From contig CP063848.1 in the NCBI GenBank assembly GCA_015277795.1, positions 3,906,001 to 3,970,000 of the forward strand: a DNA stretch of 64,000 bases, read 5' to 3'. The translations under genes were made by a program, and so were the position numbers. The notes under the pieces were generated by a model. The model had not been told where the DNA came from, made no database searches, and was given only the letters and a program-made list of their open reading frames with translations. Positions within the stretch are counted from its first letter, which is position 1; every line of letters begins with the position of its first letter. This stretch comes from Massilia sp. UMI-21. GTDB lineage: Bacteria > Pseudomonadota > Gammaproteobacteria > Burkholderiales > Burkholderiaceae_D. This document shows, piece by piece, positions 5,859 through 38,019 of the stretch.

Positions 5859-6965
5859 TTACTTGCTCGACGGCTTGCGGCGGCGGCGCGCGCCCAGGGC
5901 CATCAGGCTGCCCAGGCCCAGCAGCGCTGCGCTGGCCGGTTCCGGCACCAGGCTGATGTTGCCGCCGGTGGCTTCCAGCAGGAAGTCGGTGTAGCCGCTC
6001 ATGATCATGCCGCCGAAGTAGGAGCCGAAGGCGCCCTGCGGTGCGCCGGCCAGGTAGCCGCCGAAGGTGTTGTTCGCCACCAGCATCAGTTCGCCGTACA
6101 TCTCGACGAAGGACGGGCCGCCCGAGTCGCCGCCGCCGATGCCGGCTTCGACGTCGTTCGCCAGTTTCGGCGTGCACACGCCGGCGTAGGTGCACCAGGT
6201 GTCCTTGCCGCCGCCATCGAAGTCGGCGTAGTACACTTCGGCCTTGCCGCCGAAGTCCTGTTCGTCGTCGCCTTCGAGCAGGTCGATGTAGTTCTCGCCG
6301 CTGCGCTTGATCGCGAAATCAGGCGAAACGTAGTGACCGTCGATACCGTCGCCCGAGGTGCCGTAGCCTGCCATGATGATGCGCTGGCCACTGGTCAGCG
6401 GATTGACCGCAACCTTGTAGATCTTGGCGGAAGCCGGCGCATCGGCCGACAGGGTGACGACGGCGACGTCGTCGTTGACGCAACCCCTGCTGCCGTCCGG
6501 GCAGTTGTTGAAGCCCTGGTAATCCGAGTGCACCGCGAACGAGGACGCGCGGATGATCCGGTTGTAGTCGCCGTCGCTGTTGAAGACGACGCTGATGCTC
6601 TGGCCCGGGGCCTTCAGGTCGACATATTTACCGTTGCCATTGGTGTCGACGCAGTGGCCTGCCGAGACGACCTGGCGCTTGCCGACCAGTGCGCCGGAGC
6701 AGATGAAACCTTGCTGAACGCCGTTTTCCGGATAAGTAATGTAAAGGCTGACCACGCCGGAGAACTTCGACGAGGAGACATTCGGATCGATACGATTGTC
6801 AGGGCTGTCGGGCGGCACGCCGTTCGGGTCGCCGGCCACGATCAGTGGCACGATGACACTGCCTGGAATCTGCGTCGCCTGTGCGAACGATGCGCTGCCC
6901 AGCATGACGCCGACTGCGATTGCCCGGCCTACCACTTCCTTAAAAGACATTTTCCGATTTTGCAT
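5859..6965 (-). CDS. Secreted trypsin-like serine protease with PEP-CTERM anchor
   Basis: A 368-residue S1-type (chymotrypsin fold) protease. The catalytic triad is visible: His104 in VVSAGHC, Asp166 in NDDVAVV, Ser281 in GGGDSGGPS. A signal peptide covers about the first 30 residues (hydrophobic core AIAVGVMLGSASFAQA). The C-terminus is a PEP-CTERM sorting signal: VPEPASAALLGLG, a transmembrane stretch, then ARRRRKPSSK. In the exosortase system such proteins are exported, cleaved at the PEP motif and passed to the envelope or matrix; no exosortase gene is in this window. The ATG at 6965 is preceded by AAGGAT at good spacing. Target substrates are unknown. It stands as its own transcription unit. 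Confidence 0.88.
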   Translation of the reverse strand: MQNRKMSFKEVVGRAIAVGVMLGSASFAQATQIPGSVIVPLIVAGDPNGVPPDSPDNRIDPNVSSSKFSGVVSLYITYPENGVQQGFICSGALVGKRQVVSAGHCVDTNGNGKYVDLKAPGQSISVVFNSDGDYNRIIRASSFAVHSDYQGFNNCPDGSRGCVNDDVAVVTLSADAPASAKIYKVAVNPLTSGQRIIMAGYGTSGDGIDGHYVSPDFAIKRSGENYIDLLEGDDEQDFGGKAEVYYADFDGGGKDTWCTYAGVCTPKLANDVEAGIGGGDSGGPSFVEMYGELMLVANNTFGGYLAGAPQGAFGSYFGGMIMSGYTDFLLEATGGNISLVPEPASAALLGLGSLMALGARRRRKPSSK

Positions 6966-32283: not shown

Positions 32284-33192
32284 CTAAATGGTACCGGGAC
32301 GCAGCGGCACGAAATGGCACGCTTCCAGCGTTTCGCTGGCCCATTCGCTCTTGCCGATGCGGGTAATGCGTTGCAGGTGCTGGACCTGGGCGCCGACCGG
32401 CGCGACGAGGTGCGCGCCGACGGCCAACTGTTCGAGCAGCGCACGCGGCACTTCGAGTCCCGCGGCTGCGAGGATGATGCCGTCGAAAGGCGCAACCTGC
32501 GGCAAGCCTAGCATACCATCGCCATATTGCAAACGCAGGTTCGAAATCCGCAGCGGCCGCAACTTGGTCTTGGCCAGCTCGTGCAGCGGCCTGATGCGCT
32601 CGATCGAATACACCTCGCGCGCCACGAAGGACAGCACCGCGGCCTGGTAGCCGCAGCCGGTGCCGATCTCGAGCACCCTGCCCAGCTGCCTGCCTTGCTG
32701 GGGCGAGGCGCGCGTGGCCTCGCGCATCGCCTCGATCATGCGCGCCACGATGTAGGGCTGCGAAATCGTCTGGTTGTGCCCGATCGGCAGCGAGGCATCG
32801 ATGTAGGCTTGCGCGGACAGGGCCGGTTCGATGAACAGGTGGCGCGGTACCGCTTCCATCGCGCTTAGCACGACGCCGTCCTTGACGCCCTGGCGCGCCA
32901 CGCGCGCCACCATGGCGCGCCGCAGCGCTTCCGATGCCATCAGCTCGGAACGCTGCGCGACCGGCGCGGAAGGCGTGTGGGCCTGGGCATAGCCGGGCGG
33001 ACGCGCCGACGGCGCCGTCGAGGCCGCTCCCGCGCGCGTCCCCGTTCCCACTGCGCTGCTGGCATTGCGGGTGGCGGTCTGCGGCGTCGCCACCGGCGAG
33101 GGCGCGACCGGCTTGCGGATGCCGCCGCCGGTCACGGAGGACAGCGGCAGCGGAAAGGTGCTGCGCTTGTCGGTGCTGCGCGTGTCGCTCAT
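32284..33192 (-). CDS. pcm: Protein-L-isoaspartate O-methyltransferase
   Basis: A 302-residue protein: a catalytic domain from about 85 on, and an extra N-terminal stretch of about 80 residues rich in Pro, Ala, Ser and Thr that the usual 210-residue enzyme lacks. The methyltransferase repairs isoaspartyl residues in aged proteins. Visible marks: [21 protein letters not shown], the SAM site [16 protein letters not shown], and [18 protein letters not shown]. The start ATG overlaps the surE stop (ATGA), so translation is coupled. A gap of 192 bp to nlpD holds nothing recognisable. Confidence 0.93.
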
Positions 33193-33923
33193 ATGATTCC
33201 CCGCAGCAGTTCCAGCTGGGCCTTGTGGGTCAGGTCGATCTGCAGCGGCGTGATCGACACGCAGCCCTGTGCGGTGGTGTGGAAATCGGTACCCTCGCCG
33301 GCGTCGCGGCAGGCGCCGGGCGCCCCGATCCAGAAGATTTCGCGGCCGCGCGGATCCTGCGAACGGATCACCGGCTCGGCCTGGTGACGGCGGCCGAGGC
33401 GCGCGGGGGTCAGCGGGCCGATCTGCTCGTAAGGCAGGTTCGGGATGTTCACGTTGAACAGGAAGGGCAGTTCGAGCTTGTCGAAGCGGCGCTCGACGAT
33501 CTCGCGTGCGACCCGGGCGGCGGCGTCGACGTGGGCCCAGCCCGAGTGCACCTGCGAGAACGCGATCGCGGGGATACCAAACAGGTAGGCTTCGGTTGCG
33601 GCCGCCACGGTGCCGGAATACAGGGTATCGTCGCCCATGTTCTGGCCATTGTTGATGCCCGAGACGACCAGGTCGGGCGGGCTGTCCATCATCGCGGTCA
33701 GGGCGACGTGGACGCAATCGGTGGGGGTGCCATTGACAAAATGAAAACCGTTCGCCGCTTTCGTGACCGTCAGCGGACGGTCGAGCGACAGCGAATTCGA
33801 CGCACCCGAGCGATTGCTGTCGGGTGCGACCACCACGATGTCCGCAATCGCGGACAAGGCATCGGCCAGCGCACTGATACCAGGCGCCAGGTAGCCGTCA
33901 TCGTTACTGATAAGAATTCGCAT
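33189..33923 (-). CDS. surE: 5'/3'-nucleotidase SurE
   Basis: A 244-residue metal-dependent phosphatase for nucleoside monophosphates. The metal site is [12 protein letters not shown] (Asp8-Asp9 pair), with [21 protein letters not shown] and [22 protein letters not shown] as the other signature loops. Length is normal. It starts the surE-pcm-nlpD-rpoS-rlmD order typical of stress-survival loci; upstream lies the TIR/TPR cassette, which interrupts what would otherwise be a housekeeping block. Confidence 0.96.
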
Positions 33924-34037
33924 GTACGCGATTTTACCTGAAGCAACGGTCGCTTCGTTCGTCGACGCTGCCTTTTTGTTTCCTGACGGCGATTTTTTGT
34001 GGCGCCGGATCGCCCGCCCCAGCGCACCGTATTGTCG

Positions 34038-36218
34038 TTAACGCAAGCCCTGTGGATGGTCGGGTGCGCTCCGGAACAGCGCCCCCTCCAGAGACGAGAC
34101 CAGGCCCTTGTTGAAGGCCAGCGCCGCGTCCTTGTCCCCTTCCTGCAGGTAGACCTGCTCGATCATGGCCGTCACGCGCTTGCGTAGCGGAAGTGCCACA
34201 CTCGGCCACTGCACCGAATGCGCCAGGCTGTCGGCCAGCGCCCGCGCTTCGTGCTGGCTGTCCCGGTCGATCAGGTCTTTCAGCTGGGCGCACTTGTGCT
34301 GCAGGCTGTCGAATACCGGGTGCGCATCGGGGTGCGCATCCGGGTGCTCATCGGGGTGGGCAACGCCGGGCGTGCGCTCCGGCAGCAGGGTGTGCGCAGC
34401 GTGGATGATGCGTACCGCCGCCATGTCGCCCTGGGCGGCAAGGATCCTGGTCAGCGCCTCGCGCGCCTGCAGGGTCGGCACCGCGTAGCGGCCGTCCTGG
34501 CGTTCGCGTCCGCGCAGCACGGCCTCGAGCAGGCGTCGTGCATTGCCGAGGTCGCCCATCTTCCCGAGCAGCTGGGCCAGCCGCTGTCCGCAGCGCAGCG
34601 TGTTTTCGTGCTCGCCGCCCTGCAGCCGCCGGCGGCCGTCGAGCACGCGCTCGAACAGCACCCGTGCGCGCTCGTTCTCGTGCTGCTCGCGCAGGGTGAC
34701 GGCCAGGTCTTCGAGGCTGTCGAGCGTGGCCGGGTGGGCGTCGCCCCAGCGCCGCTCGCAGCTCGCCACCACCTGTTCGTGCAGGGCCAGCGCGCGTTCG
34801 CGCTCCCCGAGCCGGCCGAGCACGCGCGCCAGGCCCGAGCGGGCCGCCAGCGTTTCGGGATCTTCGGAATCGGTGCTGCGCGCGCACAGCCGGACCAGCT
34901 GTTCGTAGCTGCGGCGCGCCTCGTCCAGCCTGCCTCCCGTGAAGTGCAGCGCAGCCAGCGCGGCCAGGGCGGCGCGCGCCTCGGGGTGTTCCTCGCCCTG
35001 CACGGAACGGCGCAGCGCCAGGCTTTCGCCGAGCAGACCGGCCGCTTCGCGCTCGCGACCTTCTTTGTGGCAGAGCGTGGCGAGCCGCGCGAGCTGGCCG
35101 GCCAGCCGCGCGGTGGCCGCGGCGCCCTGCTCGGCGCGGGCGTGCGCGCTCGCCAGGCGCAGGCGCACCTCGGCCAGGGACTGCCATGGAAGACACCCAT
35201 GGAGGAACCACGACAGCAGGCAGCTCGCGGGGCGCGCCAGCGCACCGCGCGCGGCGCCGCCGCTGTCGTCGATGGCGACGGCCTCGCACAGCGGCAACTG
35301 GACTTCGTCGAACCAGCTTTCCAGGCCCAGCAGGCTGGTGCCGTAGGCGTCGCGCAGCAAGCCTTCGCTACGCGCCTGGTAGCCGGCCATGCCATGCGCC
35401 GGATCGCCGCGGCGCCAGCGCTGGCCCGGGTCGCTGCGTGCGCCGTCGGCGGCGCACGCCACCGGATACACCAGCAGCGGCCGCTGTTCGTCCTCGTGCG
35501 TGCAGCGGTACTCGATAGCGCGCCGCACCACGCCCTCGAACCCGTCCAGGCTGCCGGGGCTGGGGGTGAACAGGCCGACCAGGCGGTCGGGCACCAGCGT
35601 GGTGCAGACACTGACGCTCGACGAGCGTCCGGCGCTGGCGGCCACCAGCACGTGGCGGAAGTGGCGCGCCATACGGGCGGCGAACCGGCGCGGCAGCGCC
35701 GGACAGGCATCGAACAGGGCGTCCCAGTCGAGACGCCCGGCGCGCTCGACGTAGGCATCGTCGAAGCGGCCGGCACGCATCAAATAAAGCGGATAGCGGC
35801 CGTCGGCGCGCCGGATATGGGGGCGCCAGTCGACCGCATCGAGCAGCTCGTCCGCCAGGCCAGCGGCGGCATCGTCGCGGGTGAGGCGCCGCAGGCGCAG
35901 TTCGTCGCGCAGCGCCCCGATGTACTCCACCAGCCCGGGCGCCTTGCCCTGCTCGTTATAGTTCTCGCTCTCGCTCTCGTCCTCGTCCTGCAGCGTGCCG
36001 AAGTAGCCGTGCAGCGAGGGCGATTCGAGGTCCCAGTCGATGACCAGCACCGGCGCCTGGGCCGTGTCGGCGGCCAGCTGCAGCGCCATCGCGGCCAGCA
36101 GGCCGTTGCGGGCCGGGCCGCCTTCGTAGGCGTAAAACGTGCTCACCTGACCGGGACTGTCCAGCGGCAAGAGCGTACCGGAAAGCGCAGGTGAAAGCGA
36201 AAGACGATCCTGTTCCAT
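34038..36218 (-). CDS. KGGVGR-type P-loop protein with degenerate Walker A, fused to TPR repeats
   Basis: A 726-residue protein with two parts. Residues 1-370 follow the SIMIBI-like KGGVGR family: the P-loop strand reads STFYAYEGGPARNGLLAAM (26-44), where relatives have T-F-Y-S-Y-K-G-G-V-G-R, so both basic residues and the G-V-G-R core are lost (EGGPARN, 32-38). The Walker B-like strand VLVIDWDLESPSLHGYF (57-73) is kept, as are later features such as LYLMRAGRFDDAY and RLVGLFTPSPGSLDG. Residues about 375-620 are kinesin-light-chain-type TPRs (EEHPEARAALAALAAL, DAHPATLDSLEDLAVTL). An HPDA tandem repeat follows near 630. The ATG at 36218 has GAGGAG upstream and lies eight bases after the TIR gene stop. 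Likely a scaffold or sensor for the TIR protein; nucleotide hydrolysis is doubtful. Function is inference. Confidence 0.8.
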   Translation of the reverse strand: MEQDRLSLSPALSGTLLPLDSPGQVSTFYAYEGGPARNGLLAAMALQLAADTAQAPVLVIDWDLESPSLHGYFGTLQDEDESESENYNEQGKAPGLVEYIGALRDELRLRRLTRDDAAAGLADELLDAVDWRPHIRRADGRYPLYLMRAGRFDDAYVERAGRLDWDALFDACPALPRRFAARMARHFRHVLVAASAGRSSSVSVCTTLVPDRLVGLFTPSPGSLDGFEGVVRRAIEYRCTHEDEQRPLLVYPVACAADGARSDPGQRWRRGDPAHGMAGYQARSEGLLRDAYGTSLLGLESWFDEVQLPLCEAVAIDDSGGAARGALARPASCLLSWFLHGCLPWQSLAEVRLRLASAHARAEQGAAATARLAGQLARLATLCHKEGREREAAGLLGESLALRRSVQGEEHPEARAALAALAALHFTGGRLDEARRSYEQLVRLCARSTDSEDPETLAARSGLARVLGRLGERERALALHEQVVASCERRWGDAHPATLDSLEDLAVTLREQHENERARVLFERVLDGRRRLQGGEHENTLRCGQRLAQLLGKMGDLGNARRLLEAVLRGRERQDGRYAVPTLQAREALTRILAAQGDMAAVRIIHAAHTLLPERTPGVAHPDEHPDAHPDAHPVFDSLQHKCAQLKDLIDRDSQHEARALADSLAHSVQWPSVALPLRKRVTAMIEQVYLQEGDKDAALAFNKGLVSSLEGALFRSAPDHPQGLR
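34318..34359. repeat. 12-bp tandem repeat coding HPDA units
   Basis: Units GGGTGCGCATCG, GGGTGCGCATCC and GGGTGCTCATCG follow each other, then a partial unit. On the minus strand they encode repeated His-Pro-Asp-Ala/Glu inside the TPR protein, between the last TPR and the C-terminal helices. Probably length-variable by slippage. Confidence 0.8.
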
Positions 36219-36226
36219 ATGGCTCC

Positions 36227-36835
36227 TCATTTTTTCGGGAAGGTCAGGCTTGGCATCGCGCGCCATTCGGGTGGGACATCGGGAAGCTCGAATTGGTTGC
36301 AGTCATGGTTGGATGGCGTATGGATTTTTTGGCATTCGTAATGCTCGGCAATACGCCTGACCATCTTGTCGATGTCGGGGAGGAAGTCGGGATTCGACTT
36401 GAGGTCGGCGGTCGCCATCGTGAAATGCGAGAAGTCGACGTAGAACGTGCTGTCGGTAACCTGCGGCGGCAGCGATTCCGGATGCCGCGTCATGATGACC
36501 GGAATGATCAGGCGGCTCGGCAGCGGATACCAGGTGGCGCGCTCGCTTTCCAGCAGGCGCATGGCGGCGTACTCGCGCCGGGTGTAGGCGTGCGCCTCGT
36601 ATTTGGGCGTATAAATGAGGATCATGCACACGCTCTCGCACATCGCGCGCGCGATCTTGCGGTCGAGGTCGTCGCCACCGCCCAACTGTTCGGTGTCGAT
36701 GAATAGTTCGTCTTCGTTGTCGAAGTAGGGTTCGAGATAGCAGCGCAGCGCGTCGGCCAGGGCGTTCTTGAACCGGTTCATCAGTTCATGCCTGCCGTGC
36801 GCGTAGCTGAAGAAACATCCGTAACGGATCGCCAT
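36227..36835 (-). CDS. TIR-domain protein
   Basis: A 202-residue protein. The first 120 residues form a TIR domain: strand A YGCFFSYAHGRHELMNRF (5-22), the BB-loop region FIDTEQLGGGDDLDRKIARAM (45-65), strand D CMILIYTPKYEAHAYTRREYAAMRLLE (70-96). Glu88 in RREY sits where NADase TIRs place their catalytic Glu on helix C. The C-terminal 80 residues (from about 120) are not recognised. The start at 36835 is set by GGGGAGG six bases upstream. It is followed after eight bases by the degenerate P-loop/TPR gene, so the two form an operon. Bacterial TIRs of this kind cleave NAD+ or act as signalling adaptors; which applies here is open. Loosely resembles FxsC-type TIR-like proteins. Confidence 0.85.
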   Translation of the reverse strand: MAIRYGCFFSYAHGRHELMNRFKNALADALRCYLEPYFDNEDELFIDTEQLGGGDDLDRKIARAMCESVCMILIYTPKYEAHAYTRREYAAMRLLESERATWYPLPSRLIIPVIMTRHPESLPPQVTDSTFYVDFSHFTMATADLKSNPDFLPDIDKMVRRIAEHYECQKIHTPSNHDCNQFELPDVPPEWRAMPSLTFPKK

Positions 36836-37044
36836 GCTGCCCTCCCCAATCAATGTGCTCACCGGCGCTCACTGGCTCACTTAGCGACTCTAGCGCCGGC
36901 GACCCCGGCCATTTTGCGGGCGCACAAGCGAGTTGGCGGACTCGGCAGCATCGACGCTGAAGCTGCCCTGCCGCGGCTTCAGGCATAATTCCGCTGATTA
37001 AGAAGTCGCCACATCCGCGACATCAGCCACATCAAGGAGAGCAA

Positions 37045-38019
37045 ATGAAAGCCGTACGTTGCAAGGATTGGGGCCCGATCGACAGCCTGGTGATCGAAGA
37101 GCTGCCGGAACCGGTGCCGGGTGCGGGTGAAGTCCTGGTCGATGTGAAAGCGGCAGGCGTGAATTTCCCCGACGTGCTGACGGTGCAGGGCAAGTACCAG
37201 GTGCGACCGGAACTGCCTTTCACACCGGGAAATGAATTCGCCGGCAAGGTGTGCGCGGTGGGCGACGGTGTCAGCGGCTTCGCGCCGGGCCAGCCGGTGA
37301 TCGGCTTCACGCGCACCGGCGCCTTCGCCGAGCAGGCCGTGGCGCCGGCCGAGGCCTTGATGCCGATACCGCCGGGCATGGACTTCGACACCGCCGCCGC
37401 GATCACCCTCACCTACGGCACCTCGCACCATGCGGTGGTGGACCGCGCCGCCCTGCAGCCGGGCGAAACCATGCTGGTGCTGGGCGCGGCCGGCGGCGTC
37501 GGCCTGGCGGCGATCGAGATCGGCAAGGCCATCGGCGCGCGCGTGATCGCGGCGGCGTCGAGTGACGACAAGCTGGCGGTCTGCCGCGAACACGGCGCCG
37601 ATGTCCTGATCAACTACGAAAAGGAAGACCTGCGCGAGGCGCTCAAGGCCGCCACCGGCGGACGCGGACCGGACGTGATCTACGATCCGGTGGGCGGCCG
37701 CTACAGCGAGCCGGCGCTGCGCTCGATCGCGTGGCGCGGACGGCACCTGGTGGTGGGCTTCGCGGCCGGCGAGATTCCGAAGCTGCCCTGGAACCTGATG
37801 CTGCTGAAGGGCGCCTCGGTGATCGGCGTGTTCTGGGGCGAATTCGTGCGCAAGGAGCCCAAGGCAAACCTGGCGGCGATGCGCCAGATGCTGGGGTGGA
37901 TGGCGGAAGGGAAACTCAAGCCGCTGGTGTCCCGGCGCTACAGGCTCGACGAGACGGCGCAGGCGCTGAACGACATGGCGGCGCGCAAGGTCACGGGCAA
38001 GGTCGTGATCTGCCCGTAA
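37045..38019 (+). CDS. NADPH:quinone oxidoreductase (zinc-free MDR family)
   Basis: A 324-residue medium-chain dehydrogenase/reductase of the quinone oxidoreductase branch. The Rossmann motif is LVLGAAGGVGLAAIEIGKA (about 147-165); GVNFPDVLTVQGKYQ and PFTPGNEFAGKV are typical, and there are no structural-zinc Cys. It likely reduces quinones or enals with NADPH in the cytoplasm. AAGGAGAGCAA precedes the ATG. It diverges from the TIR cassette over a gap of about 210 bp. In related genomes this gene is often beside surE (from memory, unverified), which would mean the TIR cassette is an insertion. Confidence 0.9.
   Translation: MKAVRCKDWGPIDSLVIEELPEPVPGAGEVLVDVKAAGVNFPDVLTVQGKYQVRPELPFTPGNEFAGKVCAVGDGVSGFAPGQPVIGFTRTGAFAEQAVAPAEALMPIPPGMDFDTAAAITLTYGTSHHAVVDRAALQPGETMLVLGAAGGVGLAAIEIGKAIGARVIAAASSDDKLAVCREHGADVLINYEKEDLREALKAATGGRGPDVIYDPVGGRYSEPALRSIAWRGRHLVVGFAAGEIPKLPWNLMLLKGASVIGVFWGEFVRKEPKANLAAMRQMLGWMAEGKLKPLVSRRYRLDETAQALNDMAARKVTGKVVICP

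Follow-up and report, generated by a model that had tools for sequence, protein, structure and literature searches.

The TIR gene and its partner

We analysed a pair of adjacent genes of Massilia sp. UMI-21 that encode a TIR-domain protein and a large partner protein with TPRs. The pair lies in a stretch of 64,000 nucleotides (assembly GCA_015277795.1, contig CP063848.1, positions 3,906,001 to 3,970,000), which we call the window and number from its first letter. Both genes are on the minus strand, with the TIR gene first and 8 bp between the two. An earlier note, made from the sequence alone, had described a TIR gene and a gene for a 726-residue partner as one tight pair, and our analysis confirmed that the pair is real, including its coordinates, spacing and domains. 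Its parts are as follows.

36227..36835, minus strand: TIR-domain protein, 202 aa, with a conserved C-terminal extension at about residues 140-200
36572..36574, minus strand: codon of Glu88 (in TRRE), the putative NADase glutamate
34038..36218, minus strand: partner, 726 aa, with a KGGVGR-related pseudo-P-loop domain, a middle region and kinesin-light-chain-type TPRs
35520..36149, minus strand: KGGVGR-related (MinD/ParA-like) domain, partner residues 24-233; 60.7 bits with AAA_KGGVGR (NF047398), below the cut-off of 90
36105..36125, minus strand: degenerate loop EGGPARN, partner residues 32-38, in place of KGGxGRT
34389..35081, minus strand: TPR array, about residues 380-610 of the partner

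The TIR protein scores 40.5 bits with the Pfam model TIR_2 and so passes the curated cut-off of 28. Sequence matches of weak E-value from the structure database place Glu88 opposite the corresponding Glu residues in BtTir and TcpB, and we take this position to be the catalytic NADase glutamate. All 81 loci compared (the window, a first set of forty and 40 more) have Glu at this putative catalytic position, which bears out the placement that the earlier note had likened to NADase TIRs. The genome also encodes a second TIR_2 protein at an unrelated locus (G000:C1:2038470-2038805, L001; 50.4 bits).

The TPRs of the partner are nearest to those of kinesin light chain, both by sequence and by fold. 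A sequence search of solved structures with a 350-aa partner gave no match at E 0.1. Within the partner gene, a 12-bp tandem repeat of 3.8 copies (34316-34362) encodes a His/Asp-rich stretch, which is a low-confidence part of the structure model (residues 613-633).

Distribution and chromosomal position

The TIR gene was found in 57 of 62 genomes of the same genus and the partner, searched with its first 340 residues, in 56; both are missing from the same five genomes (G008, G009, G014, G039 and G040), and in G048, which is 84% complete, the TIR gene stands at a contig end. Among 245 genomes of the family there were 73 TIR matches, or 72 without a weak one in G175 (27% over 71 residues), and 74 partner matches, or 71 after weak ones in G062, G070 and G267 were dropped. 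Strong TIR matches are confined to five genera (g1, g4, g6, g12 and g40), with a single copy per genome; the two in G283 are pieces of one broken gene, and this genome (48% complete, with several broken gene frames) was counted as holding both genes. For genus g6 the figures are 36/40 for the TIR gene and 35/40 for the partner, with both missing in four genomes, two of them 82-88% complete. A pattern search of genome contigs gave 155 matches, of which 142 encode a relative; the best 80 of these 142 belong to Massilia, Telluria, Duganella, Pseudoduganella, Rugamonas, one Herbaspirillum (sp. SJZ107) and unplaced Oxalobacteraceae, Burkholderiaceae or Pseudomonadota bins, and protein searches add Janthinobacterium. 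The class level contributed one further genome with a TIR relative, G574 (321 genomes searched), and the phylum level (299 genomes) two strong matches, besides two weak part-length ones (G629 and G652) that were set aside. The plasmid and phage collections held no match to the TIR protein. The pair is a single-copy, vertically kept core locus of the Massilia/Telluria-Duganella-Janthinobacterium group.

Its place on the chromosome is fixed. The surroundings in the window are these.

33189..33923, minus strand: surE, flanking, outside the pair
33924..34037, no strand: gap of 114 bp from partner stop to surE, with TTGCTTCAGGTAAAATCGC, from an alignment of 11 close relatives
36836..37044, no strand: divergent intergenic region of 209 bp between the TIR gene and the quinone oxidoreductase gene, the presumed promoter region of the pair
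37045..38019, plus strand: quinone oxidoreductase gene, flanking, outside the pair

The order and strand of TIR gene, partner gene and surE are unchanged in 40/40 of the first forty loci, where a DinG-type helicase gene lies upstream in 39 and an oxidoreductase gene in between in 30. Downstream of the pair, surE was present in 78 of the 81 loci, and in the remaining three, which are short or contig-end pieces, it falls outside the stretch covered. The gene probably has its own promoter, because TTGCTTCAGGTAAAATCGC (33924-33950), directly before its start, is identical in 11/11 aligned close relatives; a simple scan for sigma-70-type promoters found no site.

Eight surE loci of outgroups were compared. 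At five of them surE and the oxidoreductase gene are adjacent and divergent, 103-121 bp apart and without the pair; neither neighbour was found at the other three. These empty sites suggest that the pair entered between surE and the oxidoreductase gene in the ancestor of the group. Losses followed at different places. The site is empty again in G014; in G008, G009 and G039 not only the pair but also the oxidoreductase gene was not seen there; and G040 has no TIR left and a trace of the partner that is 52% identical over 109 residues. The pair-less genomes fall at two places on a tree of DinG, surE, rpoS and nlpD (89 taxa), indicating at least two joint losses. One genome, G288, retains the TIR gene with its Glu intact and its last residues altered, and the partner domain is missing. 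The two remnants are located as follows.

L114 (G040), oriented 6396-6830: partner TPR remnant between the oxidoreductase gene and surE
L283 (G288), 5989-6651: TIR gene, with the start of surE about 75 bp further on

The tight spacing of the two genes and their joint absence in 5/62 and 4/40 genomes would be expected of a toxin-antitoxin pair, in which free TIR protein is toxic through loss of nicotinamide adenine dinucleotide (NAD) and the partner holds it inactive. G288, however, keeps a TIR with Glu88 and no partner domain; of the two proteins it is the large partner that evolves fast, and no mobility of the pair is apparent. We regard this explanation as improbable.

The earlier note had also taken the pair for a conflict cassette that had been inserted among housekeeping genes. 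No defence neighbours were seen in the fetched stretches around the pair, and PADLOC returned no strong match for it. A mobile cassette or defence island was rejected on the fixed synteny and the absence of plasmid and phage matches to the TIR; what stands in the housekeeping block is a lineage-wide core locus. The same note had held a conflict role to be unlikely if the pair always kept this place without defence context and the TIR lacked an NADase pocket; the fixed place without defence context was found, but not the lack of a pocket, since Glu88 is kept in 81/81 loci, and the pair may still have a conflict role. A different setting surrounds the TIR relative of G574 (40% identity, Glu kept), which adjoins an nSTAND1/FGE-sulfatase protein with transposase-like open reading frames around it (L286, 1847-5562). 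This is a conflict-type setting. It fits an origin in which a TIR from a conflict system took on a resident role, but it is that of a single locus in a draft genome.

Selection on the pair and decay of the P-loop

Ratios of nonsynonymous to synonymous substitution rates (dN/dS) were calculated for 29 hand-picked, non-independent pairs of related loci. The median for the TIR gene was 0.084 (29 pairs), near the values of surE (0.072, 28 pairs) and DinG (0.060, 18 pairs), showing that the TIR is kept like a housekeeping gene. Conservation is strong across the whole TIR surface, C-terminal extension included. In the partner, the median was 0.217 over the KGGVGR-related domain (29 pairs) and 0.281 over the TPR part (26 pairs); it is under looser constraint than the TIR, yet generally no pseudogene. 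Counted from the first Met after the TIR gene, partners are between 346 and 954 aa long (without L064, which has a broken frame), and their TPRs number from zero to many. From the proposal of a TIR effector with a TPR sensor in the earlier note, the regulator or sensor part fits this faster-evolving partner with its variable array.

The loop itself varies. Across the 81 loci, the signature Lys is kept as K in 19 loci, and its place is taken by E in 47, by D in 13 and by Q and R in one locus each; the last position holds S in 41, N in 21 and T in 19, while the loop Arg is R in 81/81; four loops (L078, L148, L153 and L165) were missed by the pattern of the script and read by eye. On the tree, clade A (g6 and g40, the Duganella/Janthinobacterium side; support 0.994) has an intact KGG[TVA]GRT loop in 19/21 loci, the two others being separate losses (L088, QDGCGRS; L160, RNDGSRS), and clade B (g1, g4 and g12, the Massilia/Telluria side with the window) has it in 0/60. 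If the intact loop is ancestral, the KGGxGRT loop would need to have been lost at least three times. The clade-A partners L162-L165 are of 346-350 aa, and L162 and L164, the two scanned against Pfam, are without TPR.

The AAA_KGGVGR cut-off separates the two kinds of partner: those with an intact loop pass it (113.7-123.5 bits, 5/5 scanned) and those with a degenerate loop fail (60.7, 74.4 and 78.7 bits, 3/3 scanned). Domains with an intact loop change slightly more slowly (median 0.175 vs 0.25, Mann-Whitney p 0.025; 8 and 21 of the non-independent pairs), and the TIR rate shows no difference between the two kinds of loci (0.08 vs 0.09, p 0.52).

A degenerating partner, together with conservation that extends over the whole TIR surface and the C-terminal extension, is compatible with a structural role, in which the TIR is a protein-binding module on a TPR scaffold and does not cleave NAD. 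We consider such a non-catalytic adaptor improbable, as Glu88 is unchanged in 81/81 loci and also in the relative from G574, which is 40% identical.

Relationship to named systems

The nearest NCBIfam models of the TIR and the partner are FxsC (NF040588) and FxSxx_TPR (NF040586), the TIR-like and TPR proteins of one system. These and the KGGVGR families are the closest named relatives, in agreement with the earlier note, which had pointed to FxsC-type TIR-like proteins and to KGGVGR/TPR proteins. The window TIR scores 36.8 bits with FxsC (cut-off 130), and the partner 92.3 bits with FxSxx_TPR (cut-off 300), a model that covers the repeats only and matched four of seven further partners (73.9-173.3 bits). 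Membership was rejected on these scores below cut-off. The best match in the window genome to FxsB, the radical SAM protein of the FxSxx-COOH system, reaches 35.3 bits (cut-off 370), and the 8 bp between TIR and partner leave no room for a peptide gene such as that of the FxsA precursor. According to PMC7159879, actinobacterial peptide-processing systems combine TIR, AP-ATPase, TPR and inactive MinD/ParA-like domains, and the paper predicts such inactive domains for conflict systems other than this one; the idea of a pseudo-P-loop next to TIR and TPR is thus not new. We found no description of a decay series within one fixed locus, or of the pair itself, in the papers searched, which came from an open-licence collection that lacks most subscription journals.

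By its N-terminal domain the partner is of the same family, AAA_KGGVGR, as the PADLOC candidate PDC-M28, though in the window it falls below the family cut-off, and its match to PDC-M28B is weak (45 residues, E 8.6e-5). PDC-M28 includes a HEPN-like gene along with a second ATPase and contains neither TIR nor TPR; the window partner has lost the KGGVGR motif. With a TIR instead of the HEPN-like and ATPase genes and only that weak match, the pair was rejected as a member. The window genome has elsewhere a complete cassette of HEPN-like gene, intact KGGVGR ATPase and P-loop ATPase (G000:C1, about 1217343-1220569; L287:3344-6570), which scores 100.8, 307.8 and 386.7 bits with PDC-M28A, B and C, and similar three-gene sets occur in several of the loci L172-L187. 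The KGGVGR cut-off was exceeded in 35/249 genomes. A TIR-KGGVGR pairing as a wide proteobacterial theme was discarded, no TIR neighbour having been flagged in 30 KGGVGR loci by a crude pattern over flanks of about 1.5 kb, which may miss some.

The window TIR shares the TIR fold and the Glu position with the catalytic TIRs AbTir, BtTir, SARM1, SPARTA TIR-APAZ and Thoeris ThsB. It differs in standing alone, with its own C-terminal extension and without a fusion to Argonaute/APAZ. SPARTA membership was excluded: Pfam gives only TIR in the 202-aa protein, the partner is a TPR protein and the fold resemblance is confined to the TIR part. Thoeris-type matches are weak (ThcB4 18.9 bits vs a cut-off of 220; ThsB1 E 0.019; a distant effector gene was not searched for). 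The NatR-NatT pair of Pseudomonas aeruginosa is a core-genome, NAD-depleting pair; as described in the excerpt of PMC11535050 its proteins are unrelated and follow toxin-antitoxin logic, and it serves as a functional comparison only.

A possible link to quorum sensing

Table 3 of PMC5080296 lists Jab_2c19720, a 'TIR domain containing protein' of Janthinobacterium sp. HH01, as dependent on quorum sensing: when cells entered stationary phase, the gene had a log-fold change of -2.29 in an autoinducer-synthase mutant. The table also gives it a JAI-1 motif and assigns it to the core genome except in J. sp. Marseille. By distribution class and gene order, this gene is probably of the same TIR family as that of the window. 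Jab_2c19720 is 56 locus tags from the type VI secretion system (T6SS) cluster of HH01, given as Jab_2c19030-19160 in the part of PMC3566124 consulted. In Duganella G147 the distance between the TIR gene and a T6SS, which includes ImpA, Hcp and IcmF, is about 65 kb; in the second genome checked, G248, no T6SS was recognised up to 100 kb away.

The JAI-1 motif (TTGAN6/7TCAA) is exact in one of the 81 upstream stretches and present with at most one mismatch in 13/81, vs 30/405 random stretches; none was found in the window. As proof of the identity of Jab_2c19720 the motif is weak and was set aside for gene order, seen in one of the two genomes. The divergent region (36836-37044) contains a conserved block around ATTATGCCT, shared by 11/11 aligned close relatives. 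Some relatives have it as an exact or near JAI-1 motif (exact in L148); alternatively, the block may serve the oxidoreductase gene as its -10 region.

These data bear on a purely physiological module, in which the TIR makes an NAD-derived signal for quorum sensing or stress in dense or stationary cultures, tuned by the partner and without a phage role. The core, fixed locus beside surE-pcm-nlpD-rpoS, the lack of defence neighbours in the fetched stretches, and the response of Jab_2c19720 with a gene order that fits (HH01 and G147) speak for it. The identity of that gene, however, is indirect, with no T6SS recognised near the TIR of G248, the JAI-1 motif is not clearly present upstream of the TIR gene, and the surrounding genes are not tied to the pair, surE seeming to keep its own promoter. 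We hold this module to be somewhat unlikely.

Proposed mechanism

From the anatomy, the fixed synteny, the joint presence and loss, the purifying selection and the loop decay described above, our preferred reading is a resident, chromosomally fixed two-gene TIR switch, in which a TIR enzyme would be gated by a sensor or scaffold partner that is now a pseudo-ATPase in the window. We give it a probability of about 0.4; enzyme activity, TIR-partner interaction, direction of control and trigger are inferred. The small TIR protein would cleave NAD or make cyclic ADP-ribose, and would be silent in its default state. Its regulator would be the partner, with the TPR superhelix taking up a signal and the MinD/ParA-like domain aiding the assembly of TIR subunits into the active form. 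Regulators of the Duganella/Janthinobacterium branch keep the KGGxGRT loop and could use ATP-dependent dimerisation; those of the Massilia/Telluria branch, including the window, may act as pseudo-ATPases, that is, as ligand- or protein-triggered scaffolds. The output might be either NAD loss triggered by phages or an NAD signal linked to density or stress.

Several observations weigh against this switch. Sequence relatives in PDB are weak (E 0.3 or worse), and the putative NADase pocket rests on one Glu plus the fold. In some genomes the partner gene seems to be damaged or split in an odd way: L064 has a broken frame, and in 7/78 loci more than 400 bp separate the partner stop from surE, which may point to damage or splitting there. 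The rate difference between intact and degenerate loops comes from hand-picked pairs that are not independent, and the separate retention of the TIR was seen in G288 only. Table 3 of PMC5080296 lists the TIR gene and not the partner, and an operon partner should share regulation.

Most of what is known about bacterial TIR enzymes comes from defence loci that are patchy and mobile. The pair is unusual in its stability and plausible as an NAD switch, and a TIR under housekeeping-like constraint, fixed across several genera, would offer a chance to study permanently kept TIR enzymes and the response to density or stress. The partner provides a dated series of P-loop decay in one locus, in which the need for ATP in TIR switching is testable among close relatives. 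In the most far-reaching version, which we think unlikely, the TIR enzyme would have become an NAD switch under the control of cell density, with a fixed position in the core genome of the whole group, and its regulator would have gone stepwise, in one unchanged operon, from a working TPR-less KGGVGRT ATPase to TPR-bearing pseudo-ATPases with only the loop Arg. If true, this would be a natural series from an NTP-driven immune switch to an NTP-independent one.
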